This document shows, in pieces, positions 3,601-51,366 of a DNA stretch of 64,000 bases. Position 1 is the first letter of the stretch; each line of letters opens with the position of its first letter. The position numbers and the translations under genes were made by a program. The notes beneath the pieces were generated by a model. That model saw nothing but the letters and a program-made list of their open reading frames with translations, had not been told where the DNA came from and made no database searches. The stretch spans positions 27,955,916 through 28,019,915 of the forward strand of contig NC_052489.1 of NCBI RefSeq assembly GCF_009730915.1. The letters are read 5' to 3'. This DNA comes from Dioscorea cayenensis subsp. rotundata. Lineage: Eukaryota > Streptophyta > Magnoliopsida > Dioscoreales > Dioscoreaceae.

Positions 3601-4246
3601 ACGAGAAAGAGAGATAATATTATAGTGATTAATCAATCAACTTACAAAACCCTGAAGTAGTTGAGCAAATGGAAGGTAGTAGCTGTTTGAACAACTCAAC
3701 TTGCACGTCCAAAGAGAATTTGTTCAAAATCTAAATATATTTTTATTCTTCTCAAAGAAGTCACTGTTCAATGCGGTTGCTCCAGCCACCGCAAAGTTGG
3801 CACCTTTTCTCAAAGTTCCGGCTATCGCCGCTGGCCAAGTACGGTGGCACTAATGGCAATCCAATCGCCTCCGCTGTTATTATTTTTTTCCATTTATTTA
3901 TATTATTCATCATCATATTTTAAATCAAGAATAGAGAATATATATGAACTAAATTAATATAATTAATGTAAATATATGTGTAGTACTACTATATATACTT
4001 TACCTAGGAAGTCAATCAAACAAGACGGCCATCGGAGAATCTGCCGGTAGGGTGATGGAAGAAAGTTTGGCCGTAGGGAAGGTAATTGACACGGTGAGTG
4101 TTGTTGACGAGGAAGAGGAGGTTTCCGGTGTCGGCGAGAGAGTCGCCGAAGCTGAAAATGGAGGTGAAACATGCTTGTTTGTGACTTGGTAGGAGAAGAA
4201 TGAAGGTGGAGAAAAGGAGGAGAAGATATGCAGAAGAGGAAGCCAT

Positions 4247-5750
4247 TTGAGGAGAAATGATCATATGTGGTCGGTGGTCCTTATTATTTGAATGGTTTAA
4301 TATTAATAGAGATTTCTTTTGGAGAAGGAATTTGATTGTTTTTATATTCAATTATGTATGTTTATTTATCAATTAATCAAGGCACGCTGGATAGAGTTTG
4401 GTTGGTGAATGGTGATCAGTCATGGTGGTTGGTCTAGTACAAACAGTGGGCTGGGGATTCTTTTGAAGTTTAAGGAAAAAGAAAAGGTAGACTAGGACAT
4501 GGTATGTATGCATTTAAAATCATTGAACACTTGCATATTTAATGTGTATTAAATTGAGTTATGTTGACTATTAATAAAGAGAAATTCTTTTAGTATGGGT
4601 CCATCCGTGCTTGCCTTGAATACAAACCTATACGTTTCAAAGAAACATATTTTTATTGCTAAATAAATATTTTTTTGCAAAGAATCTGTGGATATATGAC
4701 AGTGTGTTTGGGGAATGGACCAGATGGTGGAAGGTGCACAAATGGTCCCAAAAAGCGGACATGGTTACAAGTTGTTATTTTCATGACCCGTGACTTTCTT
4801 GAAAGTAAAAGTACACATGTTTTTGATGAGCATTGAACCTGTAACTGCGAGATAGGGCAAAAAAATCACATGTTCAATTATTGCCTTTTCCCATTCCTTT
4901 TGATTTTAATTAAAATTAATTATATATTTTTTAAGTTGTAGACCTACACCTACAATCAAGGATCTATCAATTACCATCATTGCATATAGTAGGACTTAAA
5001 CTCAGGATTCTAAAAATTTTATGCCAATGTCTTTTGTAATGGGGTCAATTTAGAGATCTCAATGGGATGAAGATTCACAGGGGGAGGTATTCCCTAACCC
5101 GAACCCCGATTTTCCCAAACCCATTCCCAACCTCGAACCCAAGTACACAAAAAATATTTTAATATATATTTTCATTTAATATAAATATTTTTTTAACTTT
5201 ATATATACATAATATTTAAATTATATATTCGAGAGCGGGGAGGGGTAAGGAAGAGATTCCTCTACCCCGTTTTCCGAATTTTAGCTTCAGGCCCTACTCT
5301 GCCCAAGTTGGAGTGAGGAATTAGGTTCTCAGTTGTGTCCGGGACAAATTGACAACGCTGGATCAATTTTGTCTAATTTTAGAATTTTAATTGCTTGCAC
5401 CTGTTCATTTCTCATATAGGTGTGATAGGTTTATAAAACATGAGAATGTGAATTACATTTTTAAAAAAGATAAATAAAATAACAGCTTTAATTAATCAAC
5501 ATTACCAAATTATTACCTTTTGAGAAAAACACAAAGGACAAGTAACATGCTGGTCGAGAATTTATTTAAGAGATCCCTTTGTAAACTATTAGCAAGGGCC
5601 ATCATAGGTTTTTTCTTTGAAGAAATGTAAATAAGCTACATCATAGAGATGCATATATGTGGATCCAGTTACTATATCAACAAATAAGGACATGAATACC
5701 TTCACATAGAAAATTTGATGCTAATAGGCCATTGGCCACATTATTTCAAA
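4247..5750. other. Intergenic, possible MITE remnant at 5040-5345
   Basis: No gene was seen. Within it, 5080-5150 is rich in AACCC/CCCCGA, and 5230-5290 carries roughly complementary GGGGAGGGGTAAGG / CTCTACCCCG sequence around an AT-rich middle. This arrangement resembles a degraded small inverted-repeat element. The ends and a target-site duplication could not be fixed. Confidence 0.35.
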
Positions 5751-5751
5751 A

Positions 5752-7545
5752 ACTTGTCTATTCTCTTCATAGTTGCTATATATGTTCGAAGGGATGTCAG
5801 GGTTGGAAACCAACTTCTCGAAAACTTGTCTATTCTCTTCTCGCGTTGACCAACTTCCGAGTCAAGCTGAGGCCCTGACCCTTAGTTGTGCGGTTGGCAG
5901 TCTCCGTGCTACATATCTTGGTATACCTATTTCCGGAAGAAGACCAAGGAAGAGGGACTGGAAATCCTCATTGCCAAGGTCCCGGGGAGGTTATCATCTT
6001 GAAAGCTCGCCACTCGCCTATCGGTGGTAGACTTACTTTGTTAAATTCCTGCTCTCTCCGCAATTCCAACGTACTCGGATGTCTATCTTTCGCTCCGAGC
6101 CGGGTGATCGTGGGAGGTGGGATGGACTTTAGAGGGACTTTTCGTGGTGGGGCACCGATCTAGATAAACCCTAAATGTCGTCTCGTCACCGGAAGAGTAT
6201 TTCAGGCACCAAAGGAGTTAGGTGGGTGGGGCATTCTCGACTTGAAGGTTTTTCAACTCGCCCCTTCGCAAATGGTGGTGGAAATTGTACTCGGATGCGA
6301 GTTGGTTCGGGTGGCCAATTGTGCGATATAACTATGGAATTTCAGATCGAACCCTCGCGATATTCACCGTCACGGTAGGACCTCTTTTCTTTTGGAGCGG
6401 TCTTTTTCGATCGCTTCACGGCTCTAAGAGGTTGCACCGTGCAAATCGCTTCGGTGGTTCCCATGCGTTATTACGGGAAAGATAAATGGCTTAAACCCTG
6501 GCTGAGCGCCTATGAATATTTGGCCTCGATTTGTTTTTCCGAGTCGATGAAACCCCTACCAGCACCCAGTTAAGGATCTTTTTCACATTCTAGATATTGC
6601 ACCTTTTTCGGAGGATGCCGAGGTGGTGAGTTTTCTGGAGACATTCACCCTCCGCGAGGATCAGTCTGAGGATGATCTAAAATGGTGGGCTCTAACTCCC
6701 GACCGCTTTCTGCTAAATCCTTCTACACCTTTCTGTTGATGGAGGGATTAAATGCCCAATGGCCAGGGTTGTCTGAATTCTCGTGTCCACAGAAGGTTAA
6801 TATCTTCAATTGGCTTGCTTGGAAGAATAAAATCCTTACTTTGGAAAATTTAGCTCGTGCCGGCGCTGCAACAGACTTCCTACCACTACTTGTGTCTCGT
6901 GCCATGCGCATCGTGAATCGTGGACCATCTTTTCCGTAATTGTCGGGCTTGTTCAACCAATTTGGGGGTTTCTTCCTAAAACCTTTTTGGTTTTATGGCG
7001 CTTCCTCTTCCTAGATGAAGTGTGGGGATCTTGGTGGTTTAATCACGCCCTAATCTGCAACCCTTAGGCGGTGTCATTGTGAAAGCGATTATTTGGCATG
7101 TCCGGCTTGTTAGGAATGATCGCATTTTTTTAATGCAGTTGTTTGTCCCCTCTCACTGTGATTTCGAAGATTGTTCATGCTCGATTCTATGGTTTTCTGA
7201 GCCCCTCCTTCTCAAAGAAGCGAGCTTTGGTGAGCATGCTTTCTACCTTGCGTCGCATCCCGGTGTTCTCTCGCATCATGTTGACCCCACGGATGGAGTG
7301 TCTCCCTAGTGGCGTGGACCCTAGCTCGGGATCCGGGGCAGTGAGTTTATTTGTTGATCCTCGGTCACCGCTTTGGCCGTGGTGTGTCTGGCTATTTGTT
7401 TTTGGCTACCTTTTTGTTTCCACCTCTAGTGGATCTGCTCGCTTTTTGTGGTTTTAGTCGTACACTTGGGTCGCTTGGTGGTGTATCTGCTATCTTTTCC
7501 TTTCTAATGCATGCGGTTTATCCACCTTTTCAGTATAAAATTACA
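5752..7545 (+). mobile_element. L1-like LINE fragment (RT C-terminus, zf-RVT, 3' end)
   Basis: A 5'-truncated, frameshifted non-LTR retrotransposon. The order of domains fits a plant L1. The end of the reverse transcriptase contains SGLETNFSKT and YLGIPISGRRPRKRDW (about 5790-5965), then GGRLTLLNS near 6030. The zinc-binding domain of plant LINE reverse transcriptases follows near 6780-6930 (CPQKVNIFNWLAWKNKILT, LENLARAG, then CxxCH spacing in another frame). The 3' end near 7505-7535 has 'gcggtttatccacc', the same terminus as the LINE copies at 45.1, 52.9 and (weakly) 63.6 kb. A short local duplication ('aaaacttgtctattctcttc' at 5752 and 5820) lies at its left edge. It is inactive. Confidence 0.88.
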
Positions 7546-22978: not shown

Positions 22979-23217
22979 TGGAATTGAAATGGATTGGTTG
23001 TTGTCACTGATTTTCAATTCTACATTTAAATAAACGCTAATTACTTGCATTGTCAGTAACCACATAATTATTATTAATATATCCAAGAGTCTCCGAATCA
23101 CACACACTTGCACAAGATTACCAAGATATTCACTTTGACAGTCAACACAGTTACACTATGGAGACTGGAGTGCATTAAAAGACCGCATTAAATGACAAAC
23201 CAATGAAACTAATTTAG

Positions 23218-23254
<37 letters not shown>

Positions 23255-37076: not shown

Positions 37077-39205
37077 AAATGGAATTGATTGTTGTCACTG
37101 ATTTTCAATTCTACATTTAAATAAACGCTAATTACTTGCATTGTCAGTAACCACATAATTATTATTAATATATCCAAGAGTCTCCGAATCACACACACTT
37201 GCACAAGATTACCAAGATATTCACTTTGACAGTCAACACAGTTACACTATGGAGACTGGAGTGCATTAAAAGACCGCATTAAATGACAAACCAATGAAAC
37301 TAATTTAGCATTATTATTATTATTATTATTAATTTTAAAATGAAAATACGTTCATTTTAGCTGACGAAACATGTGCGTTTATTTTAACCAACATCATACA
37401 AACCCAAATCAAATGAAGATGCCCACATGCATCAATTGGGGAGCATGACTTCCTTAACTACCTTCTCCAAGTCAACCAAAGATTGGCCACCAATCTGACA
37501 AGCCTTTAATGCACACTCCTTCCACTCCATGGCCTTCTTCCTCATCTCACTCCCCTTTCTCACCACCCATCATCTCCCTCACCACCTTCTCCACCTCTCC
37601 TCTCTCACACCACTCCCTATCTCCATCCCCACTCCCCATTCCCTGCAAGCAAACCTGCAGTTCGTCGGCTGCTCCGCAAAAGAACGGCCACGAGATCATC
37701 GGCACACCGCCGGACAAACTTTCCAACGTGGAGTTCCAACCATTATGTGTCAAAAAGCCTCCAACCGCTGCATGCTCCAGAACCACCTCTTGAGGACACC
37801 AACTCACAATCAAACCTCTTTCTCTTGTCTCCTCAAAAAAACTCTTCCATGTCATCACCTGAGTAATTCTTCTCCCTAACAAGATCAGACCTTAGCACCC
37901 ACAAAAAAATCACATTTTGCTATTGGCAAGCCCCCATGCAAACTCCACCAACTGATCTTTTGCTTAGCACTGTAATACTACCAAAGTTAACATACAACAC
38001 TGAAGCTCTATCCTTTTTATCTAACCAGTCCAAGCAAGTAGTGTCTTCTTTCCAGAGGTTTAAACTGAGAGATGAAACAGGGGCGTCACTGGGGACGTTG
38101 TGTTTGGAGAGGAGGAATAGAGGACCGACGGTGTAGATTGGAATGGCTAACATGGAACGCAGGGCATTCAGCACCGGAGACTCTAGTTCTTCAAAGGTGT
38201 TAATGATGATGGCAGAGGCTTGTGTGGCTCTTTGAACTTCAGTTATTGTGAATTTAAGTAAGATGTCATCAGGGTTGGTTGTGCGGATGAAGGTGGGGAA
38301 GTCTCTTAAGCACACGTTCTTTATAGCTGGAACTGATGGTACTGGAGTGTCTAGATATCCATCAGTTAGATTACCTTCATCTTCATCAAATACAATATTA
38401 ATGTTAGTTGTCTATATATATACGGAAGTAAATTTATTCTAAATATCTGAGAAAAGAAAGCATACGTACGTACCCTTGAGAGGGATAAGGCCATCCTGGA
38501 GGAGCTGCTGGAAATGGAGGTAGCACATGAGGCCACAAGCACTAGGAGTCCACAGAACCAAAACAGGGATGCCAAGCTCCTTAGCAGCATCAACACTGAA
38601 AGTCATGATACAACTGGAAACGATACAAGAAACAGTAGGTTTGTTCTGATTAAGTTTGTGAATGAGTTGAAGCAGAGGAGAGAGACAAGTGGTGGAAGTG
38701 GAAGCACAAAGAGATGAGATGTCTTGAGTGGCGTTGAGCTCGGCAGAGGGAGGGAGACCGTCGGGGATGGTGGTGAAATTGAAGTCATCGGCGGTGAGGG
38801 GATCAACGGGGCCTTGGGAGGAGAGGAGACGTTTGTGGCTGTACTCGGTGTTGACGAAGGTGATGTGGAAGCCACGGGAGTGGATGAGCTTGGCGAGGTG
38901 GAGCATGGGGGATATATGGCCTTGTGCTGGGAATGGGATGCATACTGCATGAGGTTTCTCTGCGTGTGCTTGGAACTTGGCATCCATGTTTGTGTTGCTA
39001 ATTTGGTGGAGTATTATGGTGTTATTTATGCAGCTTTGGGGATCAATAATTAATTGAGGGTTTGTTTTCTTCACCACAAATATATTATCCTCGTTTGTAT
39101 GAATTAATTATATTATTGAGGGCCGCCCTTCTATATCTGGTTGTGAATATAAGAAAATTATTAGGAGTAACTCAGTACCAGCCCATTGAAATTAAAAATA
39201 ATGTT
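37074..39205. repeat. Segmental duplication, copy 2 (contains UGT copy 3)
   Basis: Counterpart of 22979-25080. It begins exactly where UGT copy 2 is cut. The ATT microsatellite (37310-37332) is shorter here. Confidence 0.88.
37432..38987 (-). pseudogene. UGT85-like UDP-glycosyltransferase, copy 3 (multiple frameshifts)
   Basis: Exon 1 is 38987-38474 (donor AAGG|GTACG) and exon 2 is 38380-37432. The first exon is intact, with KPHAVCIPFPAQGHISPMLH and FHITFVNTEYSHKR. Exon 2 keeps all family motifs but needs at least six one-base corrections, all in short homopolymers: about 37553 (C run), 37610 (C run), 37678-37681 (the extra base shared with copy 1), 37835-37841, 37903-37918 (two) and 37962-37965. 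The 3' half is nearly identical to copy 1, while the exon 1 side and the GAPVSSL region (an extra codon, SDAPVSSL) resemble copy 4. It looks like a chimera of two UGT lineages joined by duplication or gene conversion. Confidence 0.85.
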
Positions 39206-42040
39206 TTGTTGGAAATCTACTATATTAGTAGTAGTGTTAGTATTAATGTTAGTATGAGGTATATATGTACGTAGATGGATAGTTCACTCTTCTAATGTAG
39301 GGTTGGTTGAATAGATTACTTAAGTATTATCTATGAAAAGTGAAATTATATATATGGGGAAAAATTATTTATTAGTTCATGTTACTTTTCAAGCATACCT
39401 TTAATGTTTTTTTTGACAAAATTATATATCATTCAAACCCTCCTTTTTAAACTTCATCCTTTTAGGTCCTTTCCGGCGCCTCTCCTTTCTAAACTTCATT
39501 CTTTTAGGTCCTTGCCGTCACTTTGAGCCGTGATACTTTTAAAAATTGTCTCAATTGCCCTTGTGGTTTTTGGAGAAACATTGATGTAAGGACTTGTCAA
39601 GCATTAATTAGTTGTTTTTAAAGCTCGCTAAAGAAGCCATTTTTTTTTTATCTTTTACTTCCTCAACATAAAACTAAATAACTTTTCTGAAATAATAAAA
39701 TATAATTAATAATGAAGATATAATGCAACAAATAAATGGATAAGCTAGAAACAAAGTAGATAGTCATGATATTAAAGAATTCATCTGGATAAGCTAGAAA
39801 CAAAGTACATATTATAATAAATGACATCAAATTACATAAAAGAGAAACCACTCATATTAAATGAATCAATCTAAAATTAGGTAACACACTAATTACTTAT
39901 TAATTTAAGAGTTAAGAAAGATAGACAAAAGTCATCTGTTATATCTTATCCAACTGTGCAAAACCTACAAGTTTCTTTTTTTAAGAGATAAAATTCAATA
40001 GTATTGGAGGTTGTTTGTGACACTTTGAACTATTTTTAGTGGTTCCTTTCTCCTTTTTAGGTTTTATTTTCATGAATCTTGATGGCTCTACAATAACTTA
40101 TCATATATTCCTTAAATTGACTTGTGCTAAACTGATGAGATCAATCTCAAATTGTTTTGCTAGATTTAAATTAAAAAATTGGTGAAAAATAGCAAACATT
40201 AGCACTAAATGCATAATATGGAATATAAATATTTTTTTCCTTGCATTTAACAAATAAATGTGCCAGTAAATATGTCGTGTAAGAAAATAAACATGTATGT
40301 ATAGTACAATAAAAAACAAGTTCTTTACAAATTAAATAGATAGAAGACAAAATAAACGTAACTAGATATAATAATTTGTTACATCAGATTTTGAACAGTA
40401 TTGTACAATATCACATATTTATAGCAAAATGTGAATAATAAAACCTAATATTAAGGTAAAAAGTGATAAACTAAATATAAAAGGAAAAATATTGGCCACT
40501 AACAAAGTATTATTAATGACTTATGTGCTATAATAAAGAGATAACGATATTATATAATATCTCTATTTCGCAATAAATAATAACAATGCTTACTTCCTTC
40601 CCATCATATAACTCGATCAAGTGTCATCATCAGTTTGCTTTTTTAAGTTATTCTCACAATAACGCAATGTGATTTGTGCATAATTGATCTTGCAAATTTT
40701 GGTCACTTAAATAATGATCTCAAAATGTGTCAAACAATCACGTTATCTTTACATATTGGCAAAATTCCCAACATTGCTTAATTTTTTAGCAAAAAAGTAT
40801 GCTGGCCTTGGATGTCACCGAACCTTCATACTTTTCAAGCTTGGGGTCATGATAGTAATGTTTCACAACTATTATTGCATCTACTTTCCTTTTCTTTGAT
40901 TAGGCATTTCTCTTTTTACTTTCGACCTCTGGCTTCATACTTTTCTCTAAAAGATGGGTTCTCTTAGATTCGACAAAATCGAAGTGGAAACAACAGTGAC
41001 AGAATACATAAGCACGGTTATCTCTCCAAAGTTCTCTTCAATTTGGGCAAAAACTCCAATAAAATTGTTTTTCTCGAAAGACATCTATGGAAAACTAAAA
41101 AGGAAGAAGGAGCTCTTTTCAAAGATTTTTATCTTGGAAAACAAAATAATTTAATGGTTTGCCAGTTATGGGCTTTGGAAAACTAAAAATTTTAGGGGAA
41201 ATTATTTATTAATCCCTGTCACTTTTCAAATATATCTTTAAGTCCTTCTAATAAAACTAAAAATTATTTAATTGTTATAGGCTTTGGAAAACTAAAAATT
41301 TTATTATACAAAGAAAGGGCATAATGGTAAATTCATTAAAACTTCACACTACCACCCATCAGTTGGATTTAAAAGTTACTTATTAAAAAAGAAGGGATGT
41401 TTTAGATATGTCAAAACGTCAAGGGGTGTTGATTATACTCTCTAAAATTGAATTGGAAAAAAACATCAACAATGACGGATCCAAAGGGGGGTCAGTCCCT
41501 TCGCCTTTGTTAACTTCAGAGACTTCACTAGAGTTTGCTTGAAAGGGAACCGGAGAACAGCCAGCCCTCGAGAAATTTTGGGTATCTATGAGTGATGCTA
41601 GTATCAAGAATTACAAATTTTAAATTGGACTTGTGAATTCATATTGTTCTCATTTATATTTTAATAATTTGTAGTTTTTTAGCTGGCTTTTCCGGTTATA
41701 AATAATTGGGTGTGAATAAACAAATGCTAATACAATAATACATAACATAAGAACCATCCCAAAATAAATAAATAAATAAATAAATAAAGAAGAAAAGAAA
41801 AGAAAAGAAACTAACCGAATTCGAAAGGTAAAAAAAAATTACACAATAATAGAAATCACAATTTTTTTATAAATTATTAAAAAAAAAACAAAATCAAAAT
41901 GAATGATGCTAGGATTGTAATCACATTTTTTAAAAATACATTCAGTTTATAGAATTTTACTATGTCTGGTTCATTTTCATTTTTTACATTTTTAATGCTT
42001 AAATAAACTAAAGCAAATAACTCATAATAATGTAAACTAA
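39206..42040. other. AT-rich intergenic region with short tandem duplications
   Basis: No gene was recognised. Two small duplications are visible: about 39437-39515 ('aaacttcat(c/t)cttttaggtcctt' twice) and 39736-39808 ('tggataagctagaaacaaagta' at two places 50 bp apart). A (AAAT)n stretch lies at about 41764-41788. Other open frames here have no family signature. Confidence 0.5.
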
Positions 42041-44260
42041 AGCAAATGCTTCTTTTCAATTATTACTTGCATATTGACCTAAAAAAATCATGCTTAAATA
42101 ACTCATAATAATGTAAACCGTTAGCATACATATTTCTACAACACAATTTTTTTCAATCATTATAATTGGTTTTGAAAGGTTTAATGAAATATTAATACAA
42201 AATTAATGAGTGCAAATTAAACCTTTCTATTAGTAATGCCATAATTAATGCAAACAAATATTTAAGTGCAATAATATTTTAAAAAAATTATAATTATTTC
42301 TTGAAATGATCTCAGGTATATACTTCTAATTTGCTTACATATAAACTCAAAACAAATGTTTTTTTTCAATTATTACTTGCAAATTGGCCTAAAAAATCAT
42401 GCTTAAATAACTCATAATAATGTAAACCGTTGGCATACATATTTTTACAAAACAAATATTTTTCAATTATTATAATTGGCTTTGAAAGGTTTAATGAAAT
42501 ATTAATACAAAATTAATGATTGTAATTAAACCTTTCTATTCGTAATGTCATAATTAAGGCAAACAAATATTTAAGTGCAATAATATTTTTTAAAAAAATT
42601 ATAATTGTTTCTTGAAATGCTCCCAGGGCATCTACTTTAAATATATGTACTTCTACTTTGCTTACATATAAACTAAAGCAAATGCTTCTTTTCAATTATT
42701 ACTTGCATATTGACCTAAAAAAATCATGCTTAAATAACTCATAATAATGTAAACCGTTAGCATACATATTTCTACAACACAATTTTTTTCAATCATTATA
42801 ATTGGTTTTGAAAGGTTTAATGAAATATTAATACAAAATTAATGAGTGCAAATTAAACCTTTCTATTAGTAATGCCATAATTAATGCAAACAAATATTTA
42901 AGTGCAATAATATTTTAAAAAAATTATAATTATTTCTTGAAATGATCTCAGGTATATACTTCTAATTTGCTTATATATAAACTCAAAACAAATGTTTCTT
43001 TTCAATTATTACTTGCAAATTGGCCTAAAAAATCATGCTTAAATAACTCATAATAATGTAAACCGTTGGCATACATATTTTTACAAAACAAATATTTTTC
43101 AATTATTATAATTGGCTTTGAAAGGTTTAATGAAATATTAATACAAAATTAATGATTGTAATTAAACCTTTCTATTCGTAATGTCATAATTAAGGCAAAC
43201 AAATATTTAAGTGCAATAATATTTTTAAAAAAAATTATAATTGTTTCTTGAAATGCTCCCAGAGCATCTACTTTAAATATATGTACTTCTACTTTGCTTA
43301 CATATAAATCTAAAATAAATGATTCTTTTCAATTATTACTTGCATATTGACCTAAAAAAATCATGCTTAAATAACTCATAATAATGTAAACCGTTAGCAT
43401 ACATATTTCTACAACACAATTTTTTTCAATCATTATAATTGGTTTTGAAAGGTTTAATGAAATATTAATACAAAATTAATGAGTGCAAATTAAACCTTTC
43501 TATTAGTAATGCCATAATTAATGCAAACAAATATTTAAGTGCAATAATATTTTAAAAAAATTATAATTATTTCTTGAAATGATCTCAGGTATATACTTCT
43601 AATTTGCTTATATATAAACTCAAAACAAATGTTTCTTTTCAATTATTACTTGCAAATTGGCCTAAAAAATCATGCTTAAATAACTCATAATAATGTAAAA
43701 CCGTTAGCATACATATTTTTTTACAAAACAAATATTTTTCAATTATTATAATTGGCTTTTGAAAAGGTTTAATGAAATATTAATACAAAAATTAATGATT
43801 GTAATTAAACCTTTCTATTCGTAATGTCATAATTAAGGCAAACAAATATTTAAGTGCAATAATATTTTTAAAAAAAATTATAATTGTTTCTTGAAATGCT
43901 CCCAGAGCATCTACTTTAAATATATGTACTTCTACTTTGCTTACATATAAATCTAAAATAAATGATTCTTTTCAATTATTACTTGCAATGGCCTAAAAAA
44001 ATCATGCTTAAATAACTCGTAATAATGTAAACTTTTGGCATACATATTTCTACAAAACAAATATTTTTCAATCATATAATTGGCTTTGAAAGGTTTAATG
44101 AAATATTAATACAAAATTAATGAATGCAATAAAACTTTTATATTAATAATGCCATAATTAATGCAACAAATATTTAAATGCAATAATATTTTTTAAAAAA
44201 ATTATAATTATTTTCTAAAAATGCTCTCAGGGCAGATTATACATCTACTTTTAATATATG
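42041..44260. repeat. Tandem array of ~310/327-bp units in dimeric arrangement
   Basis: The marker TCTTTTCAATTATTACTTGC recurs at 42051, 42361 (variant), 42687, 42997, 43324, 43634 and 43977. Spacings are 310, 326, 310, 327, 310 and 343. Odd units share 'atgatctcaggtatatac', even units 'atgctcccag(g/a)gcatctac'. So A and B types alternate with a ~637-bp higher-order period for three dimers, and then a partial, more diverged seventh unit. Unit 6 is longer because of one-base additions in homopolymers. Each unit has a 12-bp inverted repeat (GAAAGGTTTAAT / ATTAAACCTTTC). No coding function. Confidence 0.93.
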
Positions 44261-45160: not shown

Positions 45161-45617
45161 ATTAAATCAGAATTATAGCCCATTATAGTTTATTTTATTT
45201 AAAATTATTTTTAATATGCTACATTCTTTGATCAAAACCTACACAAAATAAAGGGAAAATTACTGTTCACCCCTCGTAATTTTCAAAACTTCCCAAAAAC
45301 CCCTCCATCTTTTGCACACTCCCGGACAGACCCTCCGTTATATTTTTACATTCCTTTTAACCCCAGCCGTAAGTTGAAGTGGGTCCACGATATGAAATTC
45401 CTTTTTGCCCTTGCAAAAGGTGGAAAAATGGCCCTAATCATAACTTTCTTTTACGATAGTTTTTCAATGCCTCGCTGCTTTTTTCTCAAACAAAGTTTAG
45501 AAGACTCATATCTTGTTCTTCTTGTTCTTGTTCTTGTTCTTCTTGTTCTTCTTCTTCTTCTTCTTCTTTTTCTTCTTCTCATTTGGTGTATTCAATTTTA
45601 GCTCTTCCGATTAAATT

Positions 45618-46620
45618 ATGGAGACTTTTTGTGCTATCACTAGATACAACGGGGAGGGACGAGTGCTAATGTTCACTGCTACCGACTTCTTGGGAATCAA
45701 AGTAGTTATTTGAAATATGTGAGCGATGGGGTCTCGATATTTCCCGTGTCGAGGTGAAGTTTATCACAACTCGATGGACATAAAACCAGTATGTCTCATA
45801 TAAAACGAGGTTGACTTCCAGACAGCACGTGTCACGTGCAGACTCCATCTTCAAATGTTCTCGTTGTTGATCTTGTTGTTGAGACGGATGACGCTGGCAT
45901 CGTATCCTCACCGAAAACGAGTTCTTCTCGTCTGTAAGTTTCTTCTCGCTTATGTTTATATAGTTGTAGAAGTTAATTATTGTTTATTATCCCCTGCCAA
46001 TCTGTTTACATTTATCAAGTTTCCATTAACTTATTAACTTATTATTTAACTTTTTTTGTTTTAACGCTTTAAGATTTATGTTTATCGCTTTAAATATTTT
46101 GTGTCTCCGCTTTAAATATTGATCGTGTTTGTTTAAACTAAAGTGTTGGCTGGAATTCGTAATCTGGGCAACGCTCTGTTCCACATCATGGCGAGCCCGA
46201 GGGTGTGGCACGCCTTCCTTCCTCATCCGATCAAGTCGAAGTGTTGTCGCTGGATATCGACAATGTTTTGAAGGCGCTGAACATTTCGGAGACGCACTTA
46301 GGAATTTTTGCAATCAAAAGGAATTTTGACTTCAAATCATCGAAGAACGAGAAACACCGGGTGATCGTGGAAGGAAGCTTCGACTTCAAAAATGGCGTAT
46401 AAGGAAGCTATATTCTCATACTGACAAACGACAGTCGATGGATGAAAAATCGCGAATCGCGCTTTGCGATCACCGCGACGAGAAGGCAACCTCGGTGTCC
46501 CTAGACGAAAGAGGATCGAGTCGAAGCGTCCCCGAGGTCCGCAAGTTGCGCTGTAGCCATCGCCACGCTTTCAGTCACAATCGCAGATCGTGGAATGAAT
46601 CATGTCCTGACTCAGGCATC
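45618..46620 (+). pseudogene. mudrA-type transposase, N-terminal remnant
   Basis: The start is ATG 45618 (METFCAITRYNGEG). Exon 1 has a frame change but keeps VEVKFITTRW and the mudrA-like PVCLI/HLQMF text. It ends at a donor TCT|GTAAGTTT (45934/45935). The acceptor CTAAAG at 46142 opens exon 2, which reads, across frames, FEGAEHFGDALRNF then AIKRNFDFKSSKNEKHRVIV. That is the MuDR DNA-binding/zinc-finger region of plant Mutator transposases. Exon 2 ends at ATCTG|GTATAT (46621). Stops and frame changes are present and the catalytic DDE and SWIM domains are absent. Transposase activity is not possible from this copy. Confidence 0.72.
45948..46141 (+). repeat. ~21-bp periodic array in mudrA intron 1
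   Basis: Core GCTTTAA/GTTTA occurs at about 45982, 46003, 46066, 46087, 46109 and 46131, at spacings of 21-22 bp, with weaker copies between. It lies between the donor at 45935 and the acceptor at 46142. Confidence 0.72.
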
Positions 46621-46640
46621 TGGTATATACTTTTATTATT

Positions 46641-46760
46641 GTTTAAATATTGAACTTTATATTTAAATATATCTCTTACGCTTTTAAATAGTTTATTCTC
46701 CGCTTTAATCGTTATTTTTTTATCGCTTAAAAATAAATTTGTATCCGCTTAAAATGTACA
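46641..46760 (+). repeat. ~21-bp periodic array in mudrA intron 2
   Basis: GTTTAAAT, ATTTAAAT, CTTTTAAAT, CGCTTTAAT, CGCTTAAA and CGCTTAAA start at about 46641, 46661, 46681, 46701, 46724 and 46746. They lie between a donor at 46621 and an acceptor GTGCTAG near 46772. Confidence 0.72.
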
Positions 46761-46772
46761 ACGGGATGGTGC

Positions 46773-47178
46773 TAGCGGTTCCCTGCTGCACTAATACACG
46801 CCCGGTTCCCCCAAGCGCTTTCCACTCCCGTCGCACATAAAAAAATCGTAACATTACATTACACTCTATAAGAGATTATTAAGTAATAAGGATATTAGCC
46901 GATAATGAAAATGAAAATGAAACAGAACCCTACCCGATAATGTACCTCGCGGACTACAATATCATCCAACAAGAATGTAACCTCAAAACGAAACAGTAAT
47001 GAATTTAATTGAATTTAGATACATGTACATTTACATCGACAAAAATTTGTCATGTTTTTCCGAAAAAAATGAATCAATTTAAACCGGTTTACATTTGAAA
47101 CTATTACACCTATACAACGACTATGACCCCCGCTCATGACACTCCTCCTCGGGTTCGCTTTTTACACAAGAAACGGAG
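46773..47178. other. Interior of the Mutator-like element, unassigned
   Basis: Between the two convergent gene remnants. No domain was recognised; the central and C-terminal transposase is presumably deleted here. Confidence 0.45.
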
Positions 47179-47268
47179 TTTAAACAATTACATTGATATT
47201 TACACAATGAACTATATACTTAAACACCGAAAGTGTATGTTAAACAAATCGAATCTGGATTATTAAAG
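47179..47268 (-). repeat. ~21-bp periodic array below the Ulp1 exon
   Basis: TTAAAC/TTTACAC cores at 47179, 47200, 47220, 47240 and 47263. In the minus-strand transcript it follows a donor-like AAG|GTATGT near 47383, so it may be intronic. Confidence 0.62.
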
Positions 47269-48123
47269 AAAGAATCGTGTATACAAATATAGAAAGAATG
47301 ACTAAGAACCCGCTTGCGAAGACTCCCCTCCGGGCCGTGATGCTGCTGCCCTCCCCTCCCTAAGTATGCTGGAAACATACCTTAATCGCAGATAAAGGGA
47401 CGCCGACCCTGCGGTATCCCGTAGCTTCTCACCGTGAGTAATCGCTCGATAAACCGCATGACATAGACGCTGCGATCGACACTTCCTTTTTCTCGTCAGG
47501 GGGCTTCGTTGCCGTGAACAAGCGGGTACTTTTGCGGTCGCCGACTCGCCCTAACTCCATGTCGATACAGATGTCGAATAGGTTCCACTGCTCGAGATAT
47601 ACAAGTTCATATTAGAATGCCGATTATTTACCGAACACTATTACACAAACACAAATTATTAAAGCACTTACCATTTCTAGCTGCGTTTTATCGTGATTCT
47701 TCGCTTTGGCATGAAGAATAATGCCCCAGTATTCTTGTTTTTTTCATTGTCGAGGACGACGACATGGAAGTGGCCACTCATAATTATCGGGAGGATGACG
47801 ATGTCCACTTCACTGCAAGTTCTGCGCGGCATCTCCAATCATAGCTATCGTGGATTCATGTGCGTCCGCCGCTCGCTGACACTGAACAAGGCCGAGTGGC
47901 CGTGTGATGGAGGTGCGCCTCTTATAACGATATGGCACTACGCCATCGCCTTTTGCAAGATACATACTGACGCGTCCCATCACATCGCCCTCGTGACCAT
48001 CTCCTTCCCCTCGAGCGGTGTCGAATAGATTGGCCCGTGTGGTGCCGACAGAGTCATTCTTCCACACGCATGCTCTGTGGTTGAACGGAACAAAGACATG
48101 TAAACAATGTTGTAAGTATAAAA

Positions 48124-48275
48124 TTAAACGTTAAAGTATAAACTTTAAATTCTATATTGAATGGTTAACGGTAACGGTAATATTTAAAGGGTATCACTTA
48201 TAAGTTAAATGTTATCTGTAAATTTTAAACGTTAACGCTCCCTACTTAAATGGTAACTAAAAAGCAGTTTAAACA
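48124..48275 (-). repeat. ~21-bp periodic array in Ulp1-gene intron
   Basis: TTAAA(C/T/G) or TTAACG cores at 48124, 48145, 48165, 48184, 48205, 48225, 48246 and 48269, spacings 19-23. The array fills the intron bounded by donor 48302 and acceptor 48078 (minus strand). Confidence 0.78.
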
Positions 48276-49508
48276 ATATCATAAAAACTTCAAACTTACT
48301 TGTCCATAGGGCGCTGAGGAAGATCCTTATCAACTCCCGCCTCATACTTATCTGAGGCGGGATTAGCAACGATTTTTTTCTTCGGAACGAAGACTCTTCC
48401 CAAGTTCTTCTACTTTTTATCGCTTCCTTTAATGGGGCACGACTGCAGAAAGATCAACGGGAGACACTTCTTTACATGCTTCTTGTTCTTGTGGGATTGT
48501 GTCTGCCTTCGATGCGCAGCACGGTCACCGCTGGTTCCACCGTGAATTCCCACTTCGCTGAGGATAGACTCAACGACCTTCTCAACCGTGAGTTCCACTG
48601 CAGCAGAGATCAATGGGAGACACAACGTTGTCCCGGTTGTTCTTCTTCATGGATTGTGTCCATCTTTGATGCCGCGATCTGTCACGCCACGGCTCCACCA
48701 GTATGCATGATGTCGCCAACAACGAGTCGACGATCTTTTTCCACGCAGCAAACCTCGGGCACCATCTTCAATCTCCTCCACCGTGATGGGCATGTCATCA
48801 ACGCTAACAACTATCGACCACGATGGTGCTGCTGCCGATGGTGCTCGCTATTATTTCATCGTCACCGGCACGCAGCGGAGACGGAGGCATTATTGTTTTT
48901 CCTCTTTTTGCAAGCTTCTTCGAATGAGGCCGTCTTTCGAAGGGCCACCCCGATGATGTCCTCGCTCGTCGAACTCCGACTGGGCGTATCCGTCCCCGGG
49001 TGCTTCATTTGTTTGAAGGGAAGGCGCAGTCGATCGTGATCGCGACCGGCCTTCCAACGCCTCACTCGAGCGACAAGTCGAGGGAACCTCGGTCATCAAA
49101 AATCGGCAAGCCCGCATGAGAGTTGCAGCTGACATCCCTCGCCCTAGTGCCGGCAGGGAGCCGCCACGCTCGGGGAGCCGACACTGGTCGGGGGAAGCCA
49201 CGGCCCAGGGGGTGGGAGGGCTTCTCCGCCTCGACGAATGCGCTTTTGACCGAAGGTGGAGAACGGCGTCCAGTCAGCAAGGAAGAGGGTCGCCCTCTCA
49301 TCTCGCCTTTTGAGCAAGCGGTTCCCGGAGCAATAGCATCCGACCGACTGCTGGCTCGAACAAATACTTCTTCATCAAGATTCACGGAACCACATTTCAG
49401 AAACTAGCATGTGTAAAGCAAACAATCTTAGCGAAATTATTTAGTTTAAACAATTAAAACTATATTTACATATGTAACTCGTGATATTTAAACGTTATAA
49501 CCTATTGT

Positions 49509-49645
49509 GTTAAACATAGAACAAACAAATTAAACATTAAACTAAAAGTTTAAACGGTAGTTGAACAAAAGTTAAACGGTAAGTTATAATTTTTAAACGA
49601 TAGATGAATAAAGTTAAACGGTAAATGATATGGTTAAACGTTAAC
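49509..49645 (-). repeat. ~21-bp periodic array in intron after the DUF1985-like exon
   Basis: TTAAAC cores at about 49509, 49529, 49550, 49571, 49592, 49612 and 49633, with consensus GTTAAACGGTA. Spacing is 20-21 throughout. It is flanked by a donor at 49682 and an acceptor TGCTAG near 49405 (minus strand). Confidence 0.85.
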
Positions 49646-50522
49646 GCTCTACGCTAAACAAAAATATTTTTTTGAATTATTACCTCTTTTCCTTCGAGAG
49701 ATGACAAACTCGTCTCTATCGTCGCTCGCTTCCGTAAGTATTTTCACCGTAGCACAAAGATCCTTGGGATCTTGCAAAAACGGACTTTCTTTCCGGCTCC
49801 GGTCACTCAGAAAACCGGATGTTAAGCGCCACTGCGAACCCCTTAACATACCCGGTGTTGGTCTTCTTCCCCGGCGATCTAGATCGGACTCGGGTAGCGG
49901 CTTGTGGTATGTCCTCCATAAGCCACTCATGCGCCGCTTGCACCCATGCGTAGCGCCCCCATTCCGTGTAGATCATCGACATAATCAACGATCCAGTTAG
50001 GAACCGAAAGCAGAGGTATTTGGGAAGAGGATTGTACCCTGGAGAGTACACCATCGTGAGTTTGGCAAAATTCTCCTCTTCTCCCTCTCGTCCAACGAGT
50101 TCTGTGAAGAGTGCTCCCGATGGAGTCTCCGTGTCTCTCGTGACGTCTTCGATAAATACCTCTCTCGAAAGTCGACCGTGTTTTCTTCTTCGAAACACGA
50201 TCGCCTCCCCATCGCAACGCGAGCCAAGAACGATTGCTACATCTTCGAGTCCGAAAGTCGCGCATGCTTTCCCGATCCCGAATTTATTGAGTGCGGTTAT
50301 CGTATCTCCGCAACGGAGAGTCAAGAAGGGCCCGCTCTTGGTATACTGACTTCCAACTCGAGAATGTCGTGGAACGGTGTCCTTCGGATGATCTCCCAGT
50401 GTCGAGGGATCATGTGAACTTTCAATTCGACCCACGGTCTCCACTCGCGGTGTCAAGTAGCATCGCCCATTAACTAGATCGACCGCCATAATCACAAGCC
50501 TCGCGACAATAATAGCACATTG

Positions 50523-50720
50523 TTAAGCTGAAATGTAATTTGTTAAACGAGTAAACACTCGCTCTTAAACACTCGATATCATTTTTTTAAGCAGATGACG
50601 TATACTATTAAACAGAGATACAAATAATTAAACGGAGACGTAACTAACTTAAACGGTAGAAAGCTCATTGTTTAAACGGAGACCCTCATTTTTACAATCG
50701 CAACCATATCAACTCGAACG
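50523..50720 (-). repeat. ~21-bp periodic array upstream of the DUF1985-like exon
   Basis: TTAAGC/TTAAAC cores at 50523, 50543, 50565, 50587, 50608, 50628, 50649 and 50672, with weaker ones at about 50691 and 50713. An acceptor CATTTCAG lies at about 50530, so this is probably a 5' intron of the minus-strand gene. Confidence 0.82.
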
Positions 50721-51366
50721 GTAAACGTAGATTATAAACATTACACAAAGCACAACAATCGGAAAACCATTTCGATCGTATACACAGACGAAAATGTAAA
50801 ACAAAACAAAAACCCTAGCCGAGACATCTCCCTGCAGACTAACAAAACCCCGACCGATTAATCCCCTCGAAAGCTTCAATGTCTTCCAACAAAAAAACAA
50901 AATCACAAACCAAAAACCGAAAAAAATGTCTCTTCAGTAATGTAATAGTTAACAAAAACCATAATGAATACCTTAGACCGCAGTGACTGAAATGCTGAAT
51001 ACTTGCACGGGACTTCTTCTTCGAGACGCCGGTGGAAAGGGAAGAGTGCCGTGGGAAGAGAAGAGCTGGAGACGCGAGTTGAGTCGGGAGTCGCGAGTTG
51101 AGAGAAGACAAGCAGCTGTAATGCCTAAGAAAAACCCACCCACTTCCTCTCACACCGCCGAAATGGGTGCAGCCACGACTTCCCGTACAAGGGCATTTTC
51201 GTCCATAAAATTTTAAATACACTCCGCTTTAATGCCGTATCGTACTTTTGGGGGTTTCAAAATCATGGAGTTGAAAAAGGAAGGGGTTTTTGGGTATTCA
51301 AAACTATGGGGGTTTGTTTGGCAATTTGGCAAAGTTGTAGGGTTTTTTTGGCAATTTCCACTAAAC

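Follow-up and report, generated by a model that had tools for sequence, protein, structure and literature searches.

Phased CGTTTAA arrays in a decayed Mutator-like element of Dioscorea resemble the anti-silencing target arrays of VANDAL transposons

The VANC proteins of Arabidopsis bind arrays of short motifs in the noncoding DNA of VANDAL transposons and remove silencing there (PMC5735166); a later account restates this binding and adds that these noncoding regions are also targets of RNA-directed methylation (PMC10398659). VANC21 occupies the introns, intergenic DNA and terminal noncoding DNA of VANDAL21, where its motif, YAGTATTAY, forms dense tandem repeats of one orientation that differ between copies (Hosaka 2017; PMC5735166). 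VANC6 uses other words than VANC21 (PMC5735166), and the words differ among related Arabidopsis families. According to a review, the KIU VANDALs, which bear DUF1985 and Ulp1, behave likewise (PMC13317346). Here we describe a comparable layout in a 64,000-nucleotide stretch of the Dioscorea cayenensis subsp. rotundata genome (contig C19, 27955916-28019915; hereafter the window), in which a CGTTTAA/CGCTTTAA core recurs on one strand at about 21 bp inside a decayed 6.1-kb Mutator-like element at 45253-51361. By analogy with VANC21 and VANC6, we consider it likely that these are VANC-type anti-silencing target arrays with a two-helical-turn rhythm, that is, target sites for the DUF1985 (VANC/KIU-type) protein encoded on the minus strand of the same family.

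The KIU (Kaonashi) VANDALs likewise have DUF1985 with a downstream C48/Ulp1 domain, and in work published by Sasaki in EMBO J in 2022 (e110070) the specificity is reportedly set by the sequence of the motif, its density and a helical periodicity, with which the 20.8-bp rhythm seen here agrees. The likeness to VANDAL21/VANC21 lies in a dense motif of one orientation, in intron, intergenic and upstream tandem repeats that fall mainly outside exons, in unit numbers that vary between copies, and in an element-encoded DUF1985 protein (PMC5735166). The differences lie in the word, which is YAGTATTAY there and CGTTTAA/CGCTTTAA with a CpG here, and in the evidence, since binding was established there by chromatin immunoprecipitation sequencing and electrophoretic mobility shift assay, whereas the present case is known from sequence alone. 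The VANC6 targets (AGTTGTCC / AGTTGTAC) of VANDAL6/8 are alike in their noncoding tandem layout but differ in motif and host (PMC5735166). The Mutator-like elements (MULEs) of melon, grapevine and rice that bear Ulp1 are alike in being MULEs with a captured Ulp1, in a passage that does not mention arrays (PMC13317346). Overall, the kind of array is already known, and the CGTTTAA word differs from the two named in PMC5735166; among the literature matches listed for CGTTTAA with transposon, there was no VANDAL title.

The periodicity is directly visible and far exceeds that of shuffled DNA. Within 45253-51366, the pattern G[TC]TT?TAA has 44 sites that form 20 same-strand pairs at 18-24 bp, against a mean of 0.16 pairs (standard deviation 0.43, maximum 3 in 500) in dinucleotide-preserving shuffles of 150-bp blocks, and the window outside the element (57,886 bases) contains 119 sites and a single such pair. 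With the stricter CG[TC]TT?TAA, the element has 20 sites that form 10 pairs (shuffle mean 0.01 pairs, maximum 1), and one site lies outside it, so that 20 of the window's 21 sites lie within the element. The periodic core reported in an earlier note made from the letters of this DNA is therefore real, and its orientation in the window is as that note described: six CG-cores are on the plus strand at 46065-46746 and 12 on the minus strand in arrays at 48124-50672. The two exceptional CG-cores are one near the right end at 51225 (plus) and one in an exon at 49822 (minus), the latter being the departure from an otherwise nearly correct statement that the coding exons lack the core. The features of the element are as follows.

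45253-51361, no strand assigned: Mutator-like element (non-TIR, i.e., without terminal inverted repeats; VANDAL/KIU-type), internally deleted, with ends GGGAAAATTAC... and ...GGCAATTTCCAC
46064-46136, plus: array in the first mudrA intron; CGCTTTAA core at 21-22 bp; 18 plus and 0 minus sites in 13 copies
46163-46399, plus: putative mudrA transposase remnant (DBD_Tnp_Mut), from a sub-threshold profile match; most of the mudrA body is deleted
46641-46752, plus: array, probably the remainder of a further mudrA intron; CGCTTTAA/CGCTTAA core
47179-47263, minus: weak array 3' of the minus-strand gene, between convergent genes; 60 minus and 0 plus sites in this gap in 13 copies
47302-48074, minus: decayed Peptidase_C48/Ulp1-like part of the minus-strand gene; 70% DNA identity to L012 6903-7894
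47588-47671, minus: predicted GT-AG intron, no array, one lone core
48075-48299, minus: predicted GT-AG intron with array (by eye)
48124-48269, minus: degenerate array in the predicted intron 48075-48299; 38 minus and 0 plus sites in 13 copies
49404-49683, minus: predicted GT-AG intron with array (by eye)
49446-49634, minus: best array, in the predicted intron 49404-49683; CGTTTAA at 20-22 bp; 93 minus and 0 plus sites in 13 copies
49806-50522, minus: exon of the VANC-like gene (DUF1985), assigned via homologues with PF09331
50523-50672, minus: array in the leader of the minus-strand gene (probably an intron of the 5' untranslated region); 73 minus and 6 plus sites in 13 copies
51225-51232, plus: single CGCTTTAA near the right end

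A cruder test, from which the core-based test is independent, counts any repeated 5-mer at 18-24 bp against shuffles. Of the six repeat stretches that had been named, four stand out on their own (the observed value is matched or exceeded in 0-1 of 300 shuffles); the signal is weak in 47179-47263 (21 of 300) and, taken alone, does not reach significance in 48124-48269 (131 of 300). Elsewhere in the element, 45253-45981, with a TTCTTG tract, and 50714-51366 lie above all 100 shuffles; the exon-bearing stretches 46132-46640 and 47264-48123 are reached by 3 and 4 of 100, and the remaining ones, 46756-47178, 48270-49508 and 49634-50522, show no excess (27, 41 and 64 of 100, respectively). The 5-mer excess thus also extends outside the named stretches. 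A tandem-repeat finder (TRF, score 40) recovered an array of about 21 or 42 bp in two of the six stretches (46054-46120; 49510-49644) and not in the others.

In the genome searched (584 Mb, 2249 contigs), we took the first 20 of 71 places with the 11-mer CGCTTTAAACG, at 10 kb each; 13 contained the element and seven did not. By blastn, pieces of the window element are 66-91% identical to these 13 other copies, of which twelve have delimited lengths of 8.2-9.7 kb and the other, in L009, is a deletion copy of 3.4 kb; for copies E, H, I, K and L, some limits were set by hand where blastn gave no match. The window copy itself has internal deletions, mainly of mudrA and of the left ~1.5 kb. The arrays recur in the 13 other copies studied, with 24-47 array sites in each of them and 25 in the window copy; they occupy homologous AT-rich noncoding positions, and the unit number per array varies among copies. 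L009, at about 4039-7405, is gene-less and keeps five same-strand arrays with 24 sites, spaced every ~565-600 bp as if an array-bearing segment had been amplified. Among the core classes, TG followed by TTTAA is the most frequent in every one of the 13 other copies and CG followed by TTTAA in the window copy; the predominance of the former suggests CpG decay of methylated motifs. VANDAL and other non-TIR Mutator-like elements make a 9-bp target duplication and have no long terminal inverted repeats. By eye, such duplications are legible in two of nine elements (copies A and M) and decayed in the window copy, and the ends of the nine elements compared have only short degenerate similarity. The Mutator-like identity given earlier is retained.

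The minus-strand open reading frame (ORF) 49806-50522 has no Pfam match on its own. Its relatives at 149 other genomic places are 39-61% identical to it, and 39 of these places contain a match to PF09331 (DUF1985); 150 of 5664 candidates were scored, one of them being the window ORF itself. By this homology, the ORF belongs to a DUF1985 gene as one of its exons. Downstream of it, the Ulp1-like piece of copy A (L012:7281-7538, minus strand) has relatives inside five of 47 PF02902 matches (by eye), and in 11 of the 47 a Peptidase_C48 lies 1.4-2.9 kb downstream of a same-strand DUF1985-type exon, in a comparison that left out 16 DUF1985 matches. For DBD_Tnp_Mut, the scores are 17 bits in the window and 21.9 bits in the 13-copy majority sequence, both under the cut-off of 25. 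Since Pfam found no DUF1985, C48 or MULE match in the window ORFs and copy pieces, the domains were established through relatives. A search of the PDB with two unaltered Ulp1-like pieces gave no protease match, and a codon-position test on 12 copies gave no clear coding signal, as expected of dead copies. On this homology, the DUF1985 exon with a downstream Peptidase_C48/Ulp1 is the make-up of the VANC/KIU genes of VANDAL transposons. Pairwise differences among 12 copies are smaller in the array intron 49404-49681 (14-17%) than in the exon 49806-50522 (25-27%), perhaps due to the exon's higher CpG content.

The co-location of arrays with DUF1985 exons is seen directly at other loci. On C2, the window layout is repeated, with an array at 3540992, an exon at 3541156-3541848 and another array at 3542015; this exon is open over 304 aa and has a DUF1985 match of 35.4 bits (cut-off 35.1). 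Eight of the 42 array loci on contigs C1-C4 have a scored exon no more than 3 kb away, where about 0.13 would be expected. By contrast, none of 29 high-scoring MULE-transposase loci on the same contigs has a listed array within 12 kb, the nearest being 32 kb away. Arrays as a general MULE feature are thereby ruled out for these 29 loci, and it is the DUF1985-bearing family with which the arrays are associated. At C18:4029561, C17:8421134 and C1:5402554, DUF1985 exons lie in open frames of 324 aa, with C48 downstream. No CGTTTAA triple occurs near the last of these, so a different word may be in use in another family.

These data bear on the suggestion in the earlier note of a transposase-binding array, according to which the arrays would be internal binding sites of the mudrA transposase itself. 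Transposases can bind short repeated motifs, and the deletion copy L009 has kept arrays without genes, as this explanation would allow; however, the arrays extend throughout ~9 kb and are densest in an intron and the leader of the DUF1985 gene rather than at the ends, and the 29 MULE loci with no listed array within 12 kb also speak against it, though they belong to other MULE families. We therefore regard binding by the mudrA transposase as unlikely. The suggestion was close in kind, and VANC-type anti-silencing targets fit better.

Same-strand distances between cores in the 14 elements peak at 20-21, 41-42, 62, 84 and 104 bp, with a best period of 20.8 bp, equal to two turns of B-DNA. In the seven fetched loci without the element, none of the 163 cores forms a pair at 18-24 bp. 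Genome-wide, three CGTTTAA cores at 19-23 bp gave 566 matches (overlaps counted), and the reversed pattern gave two; about the first hundred of these triple-core places, spanning C1 to C5, were listed. It is conceivable that the AT-rich noncoding DNA of an old transposon was expanded by slippage into plain minisatellites with no bound protein, as tandem repeats do arise in this way and the number of units does vary between copies. The spacer letters, however, vary among units and arrays around a core and a two-turn phase that persist, as in spaced binding sites and unlike a fresh tandem repeat, and the separate arrays of one element have the core in common. Minisatellite drift thus appears quite improbable, and target sites of the DUF1985 protein remain the preferred reading.

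Positions and strands were counted in a MAFFT alignment of 13 copies (the window and the 12 long ones, the 3.4-kb copy being excluded), with 441 array sites. Near-restriction to noncoding DNA is evident from this alignment: the sites cluster in separate blocks, most of them AT-rich, and hardly any lie in the exon blocks. In the mudrA body, 29 sites are plus and 0 minus, and in the right half, with the minus-strand gene, 264 are minus and 6 plus. The earlier claim that orientation follows the host gene is borne out in these two parts and fails upstream of mudrA, where the left spacer has 84 plus and 58 minus sites. Orientation therefore tracks the gene where noncoding DNA is transcribed, but in the full-length relatives it does not do so upstream of mudrA; introns with a T-rich sense strand may simply be favorable to plant splicing. 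Window 45753-45986 (mudrA exon 1 and intron border) matches twice in the full copies A, F and J (L012, L010 and L021), so a duplicate of the first mudrA exon, with a plus-strand array of its own, may lie in the left spacer of these copies. At least four stretches had been placed between GT donors and AG acceptors; at least two are in predicted introns of the minus-strand gene (49404-49683, 48075-48299), while 47179-47263 lies 3' of the gene and 50523-50713 is leader. The arrays are a general noncoding filler, present in the introns of both genes, the leader, the intergenic gap and upstream of mudrA, and are no special kind of intron. An intron-specific device, whether an introner-like insertion or a sense-oriented splicing enhancer, would suit the sense orientation in the introns of both genes and their GT-AG borders, but it is very improbable, since arrays in several kinds of noncoding DNA, partly antisense, and a predicted intron with a lone core and no array (47588-47671) contradict an introner or splicing signal. 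Introners by definition generate introns in numerous host genes through repeated insertion; host-gene introns were not surveyed, and the seven sampled element-free places had no pairs at 18-24 bp.

The sequence features tested fit the VANC layout, with short tandem motifs of one orientation in the element's noncoding DNA, except for the mixed strands upstream of mudrA and the sub-threshold evidence for mudrA itself. Besides this mixed spacer, several points weigh against VANC-type targets. The CGTTTAA motif is unlike the two Arabidopsis motifs named in PMC5735166. Pfam gave no C48 match in unaltered copy pieces, the Ulp1 assignment coming from relatives and position, and no MULE-domain match in the copy pieces tried, the transposase assignment coming from the sub-threshold match. 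At 34 of the 42 array loci, no scored exon lies within 3 kb, with 150 of the 5664 candidates scored. The 11-mer used to choose the copies contains the core and so favors array-bearing copies, and the genome pattern asked for one motif, so that neither sample speaks for families with other words. In addition, the window copy is dead.

If these are VANC-type targets, the cores recognized by the DUF1985 protein would be CG(T/C)TT(T)AA, usually preceded by C or T, two helical turns (20.8 bp) apart, and the protein would load densely along one DNA face in the introns, leader and intergenic DNA of the element. By analogy with VANC21 and VANC6, such loading would locally strip DNA methylation, permitting transcription and transposition. 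The arrays would grow and shrink through slippage or unequal crossing-over, and would lie in introns, leaders and spacers because DNA there can turn repetitive without harm to the protein.

CGTTTAA arrays are also found at subfamilies with DUF1985 exons 42-52% identical to that of the window (C2:22451231, C4:7717655, C2:3541156, C3:12866536 and C2:9746104), in a comparison biased by the search having been for CGTTTAA itself. We tentatively suggest, as a possibility rather than an expectation, that one phased word (CGTTTAA at ~21 bp) is common to these subfamilies, that many elements and array-only nonautonomous derivatives such as L009 could share one pool of anti-silencing protein, and that the CpG in the word decays to TpG in old copies. 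If true, the decay of CpG to TpG in the word would link motif loss directly to host methylation, and a word shared across subfamilies would set this genome apart from Arabidopsis, for which fast divergence has been reported.

Two further repeats were observed in the window outside the element. Just to its left, 42033-44231 consists of about seven 309-bp (or six 327-bp) tandem repeat copies with 86% matches, and 23172-23252 and 37263-37331, 14 kb apart, have the same short repeat (GCATTAAAAGACC, then ATT units), being perhaps the two ends of one large element.

A VANC-type anti-silencing layout would thus be readable from sequence in another plant genome, with a motif and a phase that can be tested. 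In a genome with hundreds of array matches, it would be possible to measure how a DNA-binding transposon protein coevolves with its targets, and the CpG within the recognized word would offer a direct handle on the contest with methylation.

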